Below are positions 1,779 to 10,025 of a DNA stretch of 64,000 nt, piece after piece. The position numbers and the translations under genes are program-made. The DNA comes from Flavisolibacter longurius. Its GTDB lineage: Bacteria; Bacteroidota; Bacteroidia; Chitinophagales; Chitinophagaceae. Below the pieces are notes generated by a model. It had not been told where the DNA came from. It saw only the letters and a program-made list of their open reading frames with translations, and did not search any database. How positions within the stretch are numbered: position 1 is the first letter of the stretch; each line of letters opens with the position of its first letter. The stretch covers positions 1 through 64,000 of the forward strand of contig JACJGO010000019.1 in NCBI GenBank assembly GCA_014163555.1, written 5' to 3'.

Positions 1779-1790
1779 GCAAACGTTTGC
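1779..1790. promoter_or_regulatory. Palindromic operator candidate (LacI-family type)
   Basis: GCAAACGTTTGC is a perfect 12-nt palindrome, 79 nt upstream of the sulfatase start. The same sequence recurs at 10013-10024 upstream of the GH95 gene, and a degenerate form occurs at 8106-8119. The shape, with a central CG and A/T-rich half sites, fits operators of LacI/GalR/CcpA-type regulators. No such regulator is encoded in this window. Confidence 0.5.
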
Positions 1791-1869
1791 GCAGGGCTAT
1801 GTTGTTTGTTATGCCTAAGTTTAGTCCATAATTTAATCACACCAATTGAAGTGCAGGAGGTATTGCTGC

Positions 1870-3267
1870 ATGAAAAAAACCGCCGCTTTTTTCTTCATTG
1901 CTGTTCTTTTTTGTTTGGTGCTGCAAGCGCAAACAAAAAAAGAACGTCTTCCCAACATCATTATTATCCTGGCCGATGATCTGGGGTATGGTGATAGCGG
2001 TCCTTACGGACAGCAAAAGATTAAAACCCCCAACCTTGATCGATTGGCAAAAGAAGGCATGCGGTTTACCGATTTTTATGCAGGCAGTACGGTTTGTGCG
2101 CCTTCCCGCGCATCACTGATGACGGGACAACACACAGGCCACACTTATATCCGTGGCAATGGGGAGTTACCCCTGCGGTCGCAGGATTCCATCCTGCCGC
2201 AAGTGCTCAAGCAAAAAGGATACATAAACGGCATGGTTGGCAAATGGGGACTCGGCCTGCAAAACACGGCCGGTGCGCCGGAGAAAAAAGGTTGGGATTT
2301 TTTTGTAGGCCACCTGCACCATGTAGAAGGTCATTACCAGCAAAGTGATTCTGTGTGGAAGATCATAGGGGGTAAAAGCAAAAAAGTTCGGGTGCCGGAG
2401 GGAACCTACCTGAACGAACTGTTTACCACATCGGCTATTGAGTTTATAAAACAAAACCAGAGCCGTCCTTTCTTTTTATATGTGTCGTACACATTGCCGC
2501 ATGCTGAACTGGTGGTACCGGAAAAATACCTGAAGCAATACCAGGACGCTGATGGCAACAGCCTGTTTGTTCCCGAAAAGGCCCATCCTGCCGGGCAGCA
2601 TTACGGACCGCAACCGCAACCCAGAGCTGCCTACGCCGCCATGGTCACCAGCATGGATGATTATATTGGAAGATTGCTGCAACATTTGAAAAAAAATGGT
2701 CTGGATAAAAACACCATCGTTGTTTTTGCCAGCGATAACGGAACGCATGTTGAAGGTGGACGGCGTATGCAGGATGCGACAGAATTCTTCAGGAGCAGCG
2801 GTCCGCTGAAAGGCATTAAAAGAGATTTGTACGAAGGGGGCATTCGCATTCCTTTTTTGGTAAAATGGCCCGGCCAAGTGCCGGTCAACAGCACATCCCA
2901 ATTCACCGGTGCATTCTGGGATCTGTTGCCAACCGTTGCAGCCATTGCCGGTGCAAAGGTTTCCCATACCGACGGCATTTCTTTTCTTCCTGCATTAAAA
3001 GGCAAATCCCAGCAAGACCAGCATGAATTTCTGTATTGGGAGTTTTATGAGCAGGGGTTCAAGCAGGCCATTCGCAAAGGAGAATGGAAGGCGATTCGTT
3101 TTTACAAAGATGCCAAACCCTTTCGCACAGAATTGTACAACCTTGCGAATGATATTGGAGAAGCTACAGATCTGTCGCAGGCCCATCCCGAAAAAGTAAA
3201 CGAACTGGAAGCGTTGATGGAGGCTGCGCACAAGCCATCAGAAAGCATACTGTTTCAAATAAAATAA
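1870..3267 (+). CDS. S1-family sulfatase (arylsulfatase-like), secreted
   Basis: A 465-aa type I formylglycine sulfatase that hydrolyses sulfate esters, probably on glycans. The CxPSR maturation motif is CAPSR with the nucleophile precursor at Cys76, and the metal-binding start is ILADDLGYGDSG. The downstream DNGTH and KWPG-type segments are family-typical. An N-terminal signal peptide ends near LVLQAQ. I chose ATG at 1870 over an upstream TTG (1846) because the signal peptide begins there and AGGAGG (1855-1860) sits 9 nt before it. It lies between a terminator plus operator-like palindrome upstream and the GH2 gene 70 nt downstream, suggesting co-expression with the glycosidases. Activation needs an anaerobic or aerobic sulfatase-maturing enzyme, not seen here. 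Substrate is not predictable from the sequence. Confidence 0.93.
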   Translation: MKKTAAFFFIAVLFCLVLQAQTKKERLPNIIIILADDLGYGDSGPYGQQKIKTPNLDRLAKEGMRFTDFYAGSTVCAPSRASLMTGQHTGHTYIRGNGELPLRSQDSILPQVLKQKGYINGMVGKWGLGLQNTAGAPEKKGWDFFVGHLHHVEGHYQQSDSVWKIIGGKSKKVRVPEGTYLNELFTTSAIEFIKQNQSRPFFLYVSYTLPHAELVVPEKYLKQYQDADGNSLFVPEKAHPAGQHYGPQPQPRAAYAAMVTSMDDYIGRLLQHLKKNGLDKNTIVVFASDNGTHVEGGRRMQDATEFFRSSGPLKGIKRDLYEGGIRIPFLVKWPGQVPVNSTSQFTGAFWDLLPTVAAIAGAKVSHTDGISFLPALKGKSQQDQHEFLYWEFYEQGFKQAIRKGEWKAIRFYKDAKPFRTELYNLANDIGEATDLSQAHPEKVNELEALMEAAHKPSESILFQIK

Positions 3268-3337
3268 AACGCAAAACATCACCAGCAGCATTCAGGACAA
3301 CATTAATCTTGAATGAAATAAATGTAACGAACCATTG

Positions 3338-6300
3338 ATGAAAAAAATAAGTTCTCTCCTGGCAGGTCTTTCATTTGCCTTAGCCGTAGTCGCACAGGGC
3401 CTGCCCTCCGAATTGTTGACGCCTGAAATTGTTTCTCTCAACCGAATGCCCATGCGGGCCACTGGATTTGCGTATGAAAATGCAGATCTGGCCAGGCAAA
3501 GGCAAAAAGAGGCCTCTGCCTATTTTCTTTCGCTCAACGGCAACTGGAAATTTCATTGGGTGCAGGATCCGCGGCAACGTCCGCAGGAATTTTACAAAAC
3601 AGGTTTCAACGATGCTGCGTGGAAGGATTTTACAGTACCTGCAAACTGGGAACTGAATGGCTATGGATTGCCCATTTATGTAAACCAGCCCTACGAATTT
3701 GCCGGTCACGCCAAAAGAGGGGCCCAACTGAATCCGCCCTATGATATCCCGGTTGACAACAACCCGGTTGGATCGTACCGTAAGAAATTTATGGTGCCCA
3801 AAGCTTGGGACGGCCGCCAGGTTTTTATACACCTGGGTGCTGTGAAATCGGCTTTTTTTATTTGGGTGAACGGTGAAAAAGTTGGCTACAGTGAAGACAG
3901 TAAACTGGCTGCCGAATTTGACATAACAACGTACATTAAGTCGGGTGAAAACCTGGTGGCGTTGCAGGTGTACCGCTGGAGCGATGCCAGTTATCTGGAA
4001 TGCCAGGATATGTGGCGCATTTCAGGAATTGAGCGGGATGTGTATTTGTATGCAACCCCGAAATTGGATATACGGGATTTTAAGATTACCAGCGATCTTA
4101 CCGACAATTATACAAATGGCCTGCTGACCGTTCAGGCAGAGATCAACAATTATAAAATTGACCAGCGAACCTTGCACAGCCGGCCCGATACTTTTTCGGT
4201 AGAAATGGATTTGGTGGATGCAACCGGTAAAACAGTAGTGAAGAAAAAGAGTGAAGGGGTACAAAAAGTGTTGGGCAACCACCGGACATTGTACCAGTTT
4301 TCGGAGAAGGTTCCGGGTGTAAAATCCTGGTCGGCAGAACTGCCTTACCTCTATACGTTGTACATAACCTTGAAGGATAAAAAAGGAGAGGTGCTGGAAG
4401 TGATTCCTGCACGGGTGGGATTTCGCTCCGTGGAAATAAAAGACAATAATTTTCTGGTCAATGGCAAACGGGTTTTGTTGAAAGGGGTGAACCGTCACGA
4501 ACACAATGCCAAACAAGGCCATACCCTCACTAGGGAAGACATGCGCAAGGACCTGGAAATGATGAAAAAACTGAACGTCAATGCTGTTCGTCATTCACAT
4601 TATCCGCCCGATCCCTACTGGATGGAGCTTTGCGATGAGTACGGACTTTATGTGGTGGATGAAGCCAACATCGAATCACATGGTTTAGGTTATAACCTGG
4701 ATGTAACGTTGGGGAACAAACGTGAATGGCGGGCAGCCCATCTTGAGCGGATCACCCGTATGTATGAACGCGATAAGAACCATCCTTCGGTGGTGACCTG
4801 GTCGCTGGGCAACGAAGCCGGCAATGGCGTAAACTTTTACGAAGCGTATGAATGGTTAAAGAAGGCTGATAGCAGGCCGGTGCAATACGAGCGTGCCGAA
4901 TGGGATTACAACACCGACATGATCGTTCCGCAATACCCGAGCCCGGGATGGCTAAAGCGGTATGCTTCCGGAAAGCCGGACCGCCTGTTGGTGATGAGTG
5001 AATATGCACACATCATGGGCAACAGTCTCGGTAATTTTAAAGACTATTGGGATGTGATTGAAAACAGCCCGAACCTGCAGGGCGGTTTTATCTGGGAATG
5101 GATTGACCAGGCCATTGATACCGTAAAGAACGGCATGCGTATCATGGCGTATGGTGGTGATTTTCCGCTGGAAGGTCCCGTGCCGCACAACATCAGTGAT
5201 AATAATTTTTGTGTAAAAGGCGTGGTAACCGCTTACCGCGAACTGACGCCGATGGCTATTGAGATCAAAAAAGTTTACCAGCACATCAAGTCACAGTTCA
5301 CTCAGGGGAATAACCTTGCCGTTACCAACGGTTATGCATTCCGCAACCTGGATAATGTGCAGGCAGCATGGGAAGTGGTGGAAGATGGGAAAGTGGTTGA
5401 AAGGGGCAGCATCAAAAACATTGTCGCTGAACCAGGACAAACCGCCAGTTTTCCCCTGCATATCAAAACAAAACAAAAAGAGGGCAGGGAATATTTCCTC
5501 AATGTTCGGTACACGCTGAAAGAGGCGGAGCCGTTCCTGGATAAAGAGTACGAGGTTGCTTACGAACAGTTCCCGATATCTACCCCTACACAGAATTTAT
5601 GGACAGGGAAAAACGCGAAGCTGCAATTGACGCAAACGGGCAATCAGTACACCATCAGCGGCAAAGGGTTTGCAGTTTCGTTTGATGCCGGCAAGGGCAC
5701 CATGTCACGTTATACGGTAAATGGACAAACTTTATTGCTGCAAGGCCCGCAGCCTTCTTTCTGGCGGGCTCCAACCGACAATGATATTGGTGCAGGCCTC
5801 AACAAGTCGTTGCGCATGTGGCGCAATGCATACGAAGGCGGAAAAATTTTGAAGGCAGATGTCAAACAAAACAGGGAAGGTTCGTATGAGGTGGTGTTCA
5901 AAAAAAGCCTGGTCAACGGTGATGCCGAAGCGGAACAGGTTTTCACGGTGTTTGGTGAAGGATCGGTGAAAGTGACCAACCGCTTTACTGCCGTAAAAGG
6001 AAAATACCCGATGCTCATGCGTATTGGCAACGACCTGCAGGTAGCAAACGGATTGGACCAGGTACAGTGGTACGGTCGCGGGCCCTGGGAAAGTTATTGG
6101 GACCGGAAGTCAGCCTCGCTGGTGGGCCTGTACAAACAAACAGTGAGTGAACAATATTTTCCTTATGCCCGTCCGCAGGAAAGTGGCAACAAAAGCGATG
6201 TGCGCTGGGCTACCCTAACCAACAAAAAGGGCAAAGGGCTGAAGATTGTTTTTGCTGATAGTTTGTTGAATGTTTCTGCACTTCCTTACAGCCTTGACGA

Positions 6301-9770: not shown

Positions 9771-9779
9771 AATAATCGC

Positions 9780-9826
9780 AAAGGCTTGTGACTTGCAGCG
9801 TCTATGCATTTCACAAGCCTTTTTAT
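9780..9826 (+). terminator. Rho-independent terminator after GH109-like gene
   Basis: A 12-bp stem (9780-9791 with 9811-9822) is followed by a T-rich run. Confidence 0.75.
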
Positions 9827-10011
9827 TACAGCCATCCGAACATCGCTAGAAAACTCTAAAAGCATTCTGCTTCTTTTATTTTTCTCCTTTCTACTTTTCT
9901 CCGGATTATTTCTGCATTGTAAAAGGTTGATTTATCAATATTGACAAGGGGTGAGAATAACTTTCACTGTAATGAAGCTTTGGATTCGTAATTTGTTTGC
10001 AAAGCCGCATG

Positions 10012-10025
10012 TGCAAACGTTTGCA
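10012..10025. promoter_or_regulatory. Perfect 14-nt palindromic operator candidate
   Basis: TGCAAACGTTTGCA is a perfect palindrome, 123 nt upstream of the GH95 start. Its core is identical to the site upstream of the sulfatase gene (1779-1790). The two identical sites near genes of one pathway suggest a shared LacI-family regulator. Confidence 0.55.

Follow-up and report, generated by a model that had tools for sequence, protein, structure and literature searches.

Palindromes upstream of glycan genes in a Flavisolibacter-like bacterium as predicted operators of a dispersed LacI-family regulon

Do the palindromes that recur upstream of neighboring glycan genes place these genes under one regulator, and where is that regulator encoded? 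We addressed this question for a window of 64,000 nucleotides that starts at base 1 of a contig (JACJGO010000019.1, labeled C10 here) from a Flavisolibacter-like member of the Chitinophagaceae. A preliminary description of the window had reported two perfect palindromes and one degenerate copy upstream of its sulfatase, GH95 (glycoside hydrolase family 95) and GH109-like genes, and this observation is confirmed. Exact copies of the 12-mer GCAAACGTTTGC are located at 1779-1790 (operator 1; 20-mer AAAGGCAAACGTTTGCGCAG) and 10013-10024 (operator 3; 20-mer ATGTGCAAACGTTTGCATGT) while positions 8107-8118 carry GCAAACGATTGT with two mismatches (operator 2; 20-mer ATGTGCAAACGATTGTTCAA). These predicted operators are single and unpaired, with no strand assigned, and the gaps to the likely ATG codons of the sulfatase (1870), GH95 (10149) and GH109-like (8343) genes are 79, 124 and 224 bp, respectively. 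In this soil-type bacterium, the three palindromes probably mark genes for the degradation of amino-sugar-containing glycans that are switched jointly by a LacI-type repressor encoded elsewhere. With a probability of roughly 80%, we consider them operators of a single repressor of this family, C6a, which would run a dispersed regulon for N-acetylhexosamine (HexNAc) glycans in a role like that of NagR.

The genome contains eight LacI genes. One of them, C6a, is encoded on the minus strand of a contig other than that of the window (G000, C6:22837-23871, equivalent to L028:7835-8872) and combines a full LacI helix-turn-helix (PF00356, 1.2e-13) with a periplasmic-binding-protein sensor domain (PF00532, PF13407), the architecture of a LacI-family member. 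SusC/SusD genes lie on one side of C6a while a gene for a protein similar to carbohydrate-binding module family 9 (CBM9), a NagB-PIG-L fusion gene and a divergent major facilitator superfamily (MFS) transporter gene lie on the other; a PAS-histidine kinase gene is found near the locus. The fusion joins a glucosamine-6-phosphate deaminase to a PIG-L domain (NagB-deacetylase) and scores above the cut-offs of both the PRK02122 and nagB models. The transporter stays below the NagP cut-off (411 vs 625 bits) and exceeds that of gluP (334 vs 203). The locus is flanked by the same palindromes, with two sites 21 bp apart between C6a and the SusC gene (L028:7542/7563) and two sites 29 bp apart between nagB and the transporter gene (L028:11919/11948). 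As expected of a NagR-type regulator, sites flank NagB-PIG-L, transporter, SusC/SusD and GH20 genes. The consensus of the sites in C6a loci, TTGCGCAAACGTTTGCGCAA, is an even palindrome with a central CG, the typical form of LacI operators (PMC4052901), and we infer that C6a binds these TTGCGCAAACGTTTGCGCAA-like sites.

Relatives of C6a were sought in 117 genomes of the family (E<=1e-60, identity down to 37%) and 20 of their loci were analyzed. In a dyad count that made no use of the motif, CAAA-2-TTTG and AAAC-0-GTTT were the top two of 3,840 dyads, occurring near C6a in 9 of 20 loci compared with 3 of 20 when intergenic DNA farther off in these stretches was counted. The shorter form CAANCGNTTG has 22 occurrences in the 14.75 kb of intergenic DNA close to C6a relatives (12 of 20 loci) and 11 in the 38.15 kb at greater distance. 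Of the 30 intergenic sites in C6a loci of relatives, 26 were used to build a 20-bp matrix, with own-genome sites excluded and L084:12216, L086:5320, L093:7569 and L093:12378 omitted; some of the 26 are located a few kb from C6a within the same locus, not directly adjacent. This matrix, trained on other genomes, ranks the predicted operators first to third in the window, with scores of 23.3 (10013), 22.0 (1779) and 19.7 (8107) followed by 13.7 for the next-best position, and the flanks of the window sites agree with it. Hits at >=19.6 averaged 0.02 in 300 second-order Markov sequences, none of which held three and at most one each, while 200 column-shuffled matrices applied to the real window gave a mean of 0.015 hits, again at most one each. 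For 40 first-order sequences, the best single hit was 17.5-19.8 in five.

The distribution of the palindrome across the family also tends to follow that of C6a. A C6a relative is encoded in 57 of the 117 genomes, the own genome included, and the 12-mer is present in 43 of these 57 compared with 16 of the 60 others (Fisher p 1.4e-7). Its density is 0.371 per Mb (109 hits; control 0.099) in genomes with a C6a relative and 0.116 per Mb (25 hits; control 0.074) in those without, and excluding the own genome leaves 42 of 56 genomes and 0.358 per Mb. C6a-bearing genomes tend to be larger; the difference persists in three size classes, the largest of which includes just four genomes without C6a, with 11 genomes below 2.5 Mb falling in no class.

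The own genome (5.66 Mb) contains six perfect copies of the 12-mer, compared with none of the backwards-read control. Four were counted as intergenic, namely the two window copies on C10, C19:27387 and C18:9181; calling the last one intergenic presumes that its GH20 gene begins slightly inside the longest mechanical frame, whose first base lies 4 bases ahead of the site. Three of the four precede glycan genes: the window's sulfatase and GH95 genes and a GH20-GH95-esterase run on C18. Allowing up to one mismatch leaves a small excess of 51 places compared with 32 for the control. The extended form TGNGCAANCGNTTG, whose outer bases were set after inspection of the C6a sites and with knowledge of those in the window, gives 15 hits at 14 places compared with one for the backwards control. 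Nine of these places are the three sites of the C6a locus, the three of the window, C18 (GH20), C19:78982 (GH20) and C19:27388 (MscS); among the remaining five, a matrix fit is seen only for C57:143522 (20.2), which lies within a SusC-type frame, while the others reach 13.4 at most. A further form, GCAANCGNTTGC, occurs at 25 places compared with 4 for the control, and the 18 places examined comprise 11 intergenic and 7 coding ones.

Own-genome matrix scores cover selected stretches of the genome, so the site list is non-exhaustive. In these stretches, 14 places score >=18, two of them in coding frames (C1:22177 and C57:143522). The other 12 are intergenic. Six of them belong to the C6a locus and the window, three to each, and the rest are C12:88609 (ahead of GH20 and GH2 genes), C18:9181 and C19:78985 (both GH20), C19:27387, C13:91844 and C58:9558; a fourth site of the C6a locus, C6:22541, rounds to 18.0. 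Nine of the 12, or 10 of 13 if C6:22541 is counted, are found at proposed HexNAc genes, the three in the window included. Three genes in the genome match the C18 GH20 gene at E<=1e-150 and all three have an upstream site, while a fourth gene, L042:5038-7623, whose GH20 domain is partial and which is located upstream of the C12 site, has no visible site of its own. No purine gene is present among the scanned genes beside own-genome sites, a scan in which 18 of the 25 GCAANCGNTTGC places were covered.

In related genomes, window genes are found in the immediate neighborhood of the regulator. In Paracnuella aquatica (Chitinophagaceae, L222), a GH109-like gene (82%) stands divergently beside nagB-CBM9-C6a, with two sites between it and nagB, one of them inside the 5' end of its longest frame, and another site 3' of the GH109-like gene; a sulfatase gene (43%) with a site lies on the far side of C6a. 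A sulfatase gene (58%) also adjoins C6a in G039, with a site in between. The same-genus genome G004 groups, in a stretch of about 33 kb (all but 0.5 kb read), genes for the transporter, C6a, GH2 (77%), SusC/SusD, an N-glycanase-like protein, asparaginase_2, GH20 and GH95 (72%). Its GH95 site scores 23.8 and lies inside a short overlapping frame, and sites are likewise present upstream of GH95 relatives in G096 and G083. In an F. longurius genome (L270), C6a is 90% identical and the GH109-like gene (about 87-88% identical) lies between the GH16 and GH20 genes of a C12-type run, with CGGTGCAAACGTTTGTTCAA upstream (matrix 18.0); as in the window, this gene stands apart from C6a. The sites, their distribution, the neighborhood link to C6a and the gene families are read directly from sequence. 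The earlier proposal of one regulon under a LacI-family regulator thereby gains computational support from the palindromes beside C6a relatives, the window genes beside C6a elsewhere and the own-genome sites at HexNAc genes.

A number of observations weigh against C6a control of the window. Two of the six perfect 12-mers, C1:22177 and C9:54353, lie within coding frames and were discounted as operators on that ground. Three intergenic sites scoring >=18 are exceptions to the HexNAc theme (C19:27387, C13:91844 and C58:9558); C19:27387 (L027:8388; matrix 21.7) is flanked by genes for an S51 peptidase and an MscS-type channel and precedes the latter. The 224-bp gap at the GH109-like gene exceeds the 30-140 bp at which most LacI sites are found from their gene (PMC4052901). 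At up to two mismatches, the 12-mer occurs five times in the window with 5.01 expected; because this class sits at chance level, operator 2 needed evidence beyond the 12-mer. The matrix core is partly circular since its training sites were chosen as near-matches to the 12-mer, and the unbiased part of the motif evidence is the dyad count. Near the gene, CAANCGNTTG is absent from eight of the 20 C6a loci, the Fisher test on 12-mer presence ignores the kinship of the genomes, and the same-genus genome G104 encodes C6a (76%) yet has zero perfect 12-mers. Footprints in other genera are sparse as well. For GH95 genes, a site is present in 4 of 25 loci; these four are among the 10 loci at >=52% identity, and the 15 less similar ones have none. 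Sulfatase genes have a site in 3 of 20 loci and GH20 genes in 3 of 24 loci from C6a genomes and 0 of 6 without C6a (30 of 57 matches examined). The GH20 and sulfatase footprints are weaker than anticipated, and the targets of the regulon evidently differ between genera.

This patchiness, together with the chance-level count at two mismatches, might suggest that the palindromes arose by chance or serve a role other than that of operators, which we regard as very improbable given the six perfect copies against an empty control, the 15 hits of TGNGCAANCGNTTG against one, the matrix controls and the placement of sites before GH20, GH95, sulfatase and nag genes. A second explanation assigns the sites to a different LacI protein encoded in the genome, the foremost candidate being C58, which has TTACGCAATCGTTTGCGTAA in its own promoter. 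This C58 site scores 26.3, the highest value in the own-genome stretches scanned and above every window site, and the operator core is common to several LacI clades, occurring in relatives also beside other LacI clades (L097, L099 and L102). However, C58 is surrounded by SusC/SusD, two GH43 genes and a DUF2961 gene, a different sugar theme, and G004 retains the GH95 gene with its site (23.8) while it contains no C58 relative at E<=1e-110. CAANCGNTTG is present near 3 of 24 C58 relatives, with five sites altogether. Under one counting rule for both, the 14.0 kb around C6a relatives contain it 21 times (11 of 20 loci) and the 17.1 kb around C58 relatives 5 times (3 of 24). In addition, window genes adjoin C6a in the relatives read, with C58 neighborhoods of relatives read to 1.5 kb only. 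Overall, ownership of the window sites by C58 or another such protein appears quite unlikely. A search for strict 16-bp palindromes (7 of 8 pairs) as a discriminator between C6a and C58 was dropped: it recovered C6a-like sites in just 2 of 20 relatives and cannot separate the two proteins because most C6a sites are missed as well, and the dyad count and the like-for-like CAANCGNTTG count were used in its place. Separately, TTCCGCAATCGTTTGCGGAA at C13:91844 (L230:1501), flanked by a DUF3826 gene and a GH2 gene, is similar to GCAATCGTTTGC, the core of the C58 operator, and could be one of the targets of C58.

Several LacI proteins of overlapping specificity could also share operators and place the window under joint control. 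The same core is found beside different LacI clades in relatives, with up to eight perfect copies in G006. There, clusters of three perfect GCAAACGTTTGC copies are present at L099 and L102 beside other LacI clades, indicating that the core is common to several regulators in the family; because such clades adjoin perfect 12-mers, the core alone does not identify the regulator. Against joint control, only C6a has neighborhood links to window genes in the loci read, and the bases flanking the window sites agree with the C6a matrix. We consider joint control unlikely and favor C6a as the regulator of the three window operators.

For the binding of C6a, repression as opposed to activation, the effector and the substrate, we propose the following interpretation. 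When no substrate is present, C6a dimers would occupy the TTGCGCAAACGTTTGCGCAA-like sites and block transcription of three window units (sulfatase-GH2-DUF3472, GH109-like and GH95-GH123). The block would extend to three GH20 units located on other contigs and to the home locus of C6a with its SusC/SusD, NagB-deacetylase and transporter genes. Release would come from a HexNAc-derived sugar, most likely N-acetylglucosamine (GlcNAc), N-acetylgalactosamine (GalNAc) or their 6-phosphates. Simple repression with release by such a sugar is the most likely mode by analogy with Shewanella NagR, for which GlcNAc is described as a negative effector that suppresses DNA binding (PMC3223726). The combination of GH20, GH123, GH109-like, GH95, GH29, GH2, sulfatase, sialic-acid-esterase-like and, in G004, N-glycanase-like genes leads us to guess at glycoprotein- or mucin-like glycans as the substrate. 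Two proteins encoded in the G004 C6a locus, one with an N-glycanase C-terminal domain (L177:4056-5969) and an asparaginase_2 protein (L177:6003-7022), hint at the use of N-glycans.

In role, the proposed system is similar to that of Shewanella oneidensis NagR, a LacI-family protein with several sites at genes for GlcNAc transport and catabolism, hydrolases and an outer-membrane protein (PMC3223726). Shewanella belongs to another phylum, and the predicted targets here include SusC/SusD, GH20, GH95, GH123, GH109-like, GH2 and sulfatase genes. The MalR operator matrix of Streptococcus pneumoniae, CGCAAACGTTTKSG, likewise covers several promoters of one sugar regulon, in that case the maltose system of a Streptococcus (PMC4451989). 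The preliminary description had set a LacI regulon apart from the SusR, hybrid two-component (HTCS) or extracytoplasmic function (ECF)-anti-sigma systems usual in Bacteroidota polysaccharide loci. This contrast is fair, although LacI regulators are already known in the phylum, namely KdgR, UxaR, UxmR and UxuR of Bacteroides thetaiotaomicron (PMC3878776). These are described for hexuronates (glucuronate, galacturonate and mannuronate), and GlcNAc is assigned in the same organism, together with sialic acid, to the ROK-family protein NanR (PMC3878776), whereas a LacI protein is proposed here. The system consequently represents a LacI sugar regulon, a known type which for HexNAc in this setting is, provisionally, apparently undescribed. 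Among the titles and abstract openings listed by searches that included the 12-mer and the hinge phenylalanine, with subscription journals outside their scope, no publication on this regulon was found. The sites suggest that glycan genes on five draft contigs can be tied together by a LacI protein and not by a locus-bound SusR, HTCS or ECF regulator. Regulator gene, operator and some ten target sites form a single prediction for a Bacteroidota glycan system, and a single deletion or binding assay would therefore probe the whole scheme.

The best solved relative of C6a is Escherichia coli PurR (1jh9, 5.2e-36), which controls the purine regulon and whose hinge residue Leu54 inserts at the center of the operator. 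The aligned residue in C6a is Phe58, a departure from the leucine that is usual, though not strict, in LacI proteins. Across the C6a clade (including L028:7835-8872, L074-L093 and L209-L226), 48 of 50 proteins have phenylalanine, one has leucine and one is unaligned, while the leucine is present in 36 of 36 other LacI proteins compared. The clade offers a naturally occurring replacement of Leu by Phe at a residue well studied for DNA bending; in CcpA, the leucine likewise inserts at the operator center (PMC5809078). PurR and C6a sites share the same operator core (PurR consensus CGCAAACGTTTNCNT; PMC3266220), located here at glycan genes. Matrix hits less than 60 bp apart form 14 pairs among 104 hits in 73 stretches, duplicates included, with spacings of 21-22 bp (8), 28-29 bp (5) and 47 bp (1); 13 are distinct since L075 and L211 are the same contig. 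Pairs are found in L028, L074, L075, L076, L083, L084, L104, L209 and L210. Those at 21-22 bp mostly precede SusC-type genes and all five at 28-29 bp lie beside a transporter gene. Tentatively, and with less than even confidence, we suggest a LacI subfamily widespread in Chitinophagaceae that has a phenylalanine minor-groove wedge and governs a regulon of scattered genes for entire glycoprotein-type glycans (N-glycanase, GH20, fucosidases, GalNAc enzymes and sulfatases), whose operators would be paired at 21-22 bp, or about two helical turns, at SusC promoters and at 28-29 bp at transporter/nag promoters.

The six window genes that follow the operators are encoded on the plus strand. Operator 1 is followed by the sulfatase gene (1870-3267; PF00884 8.1e-65, with an SGSH_C-type C-terminus, PF16347 1e-14), a LacZ-type GH2 beta-galactosidase gene (3335-6493; PF02836, PF02929, NF052611 above cut-off) and a DUF5077-DUF3472 gene (6574-7884; PF11958, PF16871). 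The GH109-like Gfo/Idh/MocA-type gene (8343-9770; PF21252, PF01408) follows operator 2, and the GH95 (10149-12581; PF22124 2.9e-172) and GH123 (12661-14352; PF13320 1.8e-109) genes follow operator 3. The description of these units as separately terminated holds in part. An intrinsic terminator-like stem of 16 pairs with a T run lies ahead of operator 1 (1710-1746, plus strand), the terminator scan places another 3' of GH123 (14354-14369, plus strand), and a longer-loop hairpin at about 9779-9820 was spotted by eye; the scan lists none between the DUF3472 and GH109-like genes, and its total for the window is at chance (17 found, 17.1 expected). A Bacteroidota promoter pattern (TTTG/TAnnTTTG and looser forms) has no match at nine site regions. 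No SusR, HTCS or ECF-anti-sigma regulator is present among the nine window proteins scanned, and the DNA further upstream is unreadable because the window begins at the contig end. Ahead of the sulfatase gene, positions 305-1624 encode a 439-amino acid protein that matches neither a Pfam family at 0.001 nor an NCBIfam family at 1e-10. A second GH109-like type (37%) has a site (20.1) just upstream in the F. nicotianae genome G118 (L271:8321), and the same arrangement is present beside C6a in G004.

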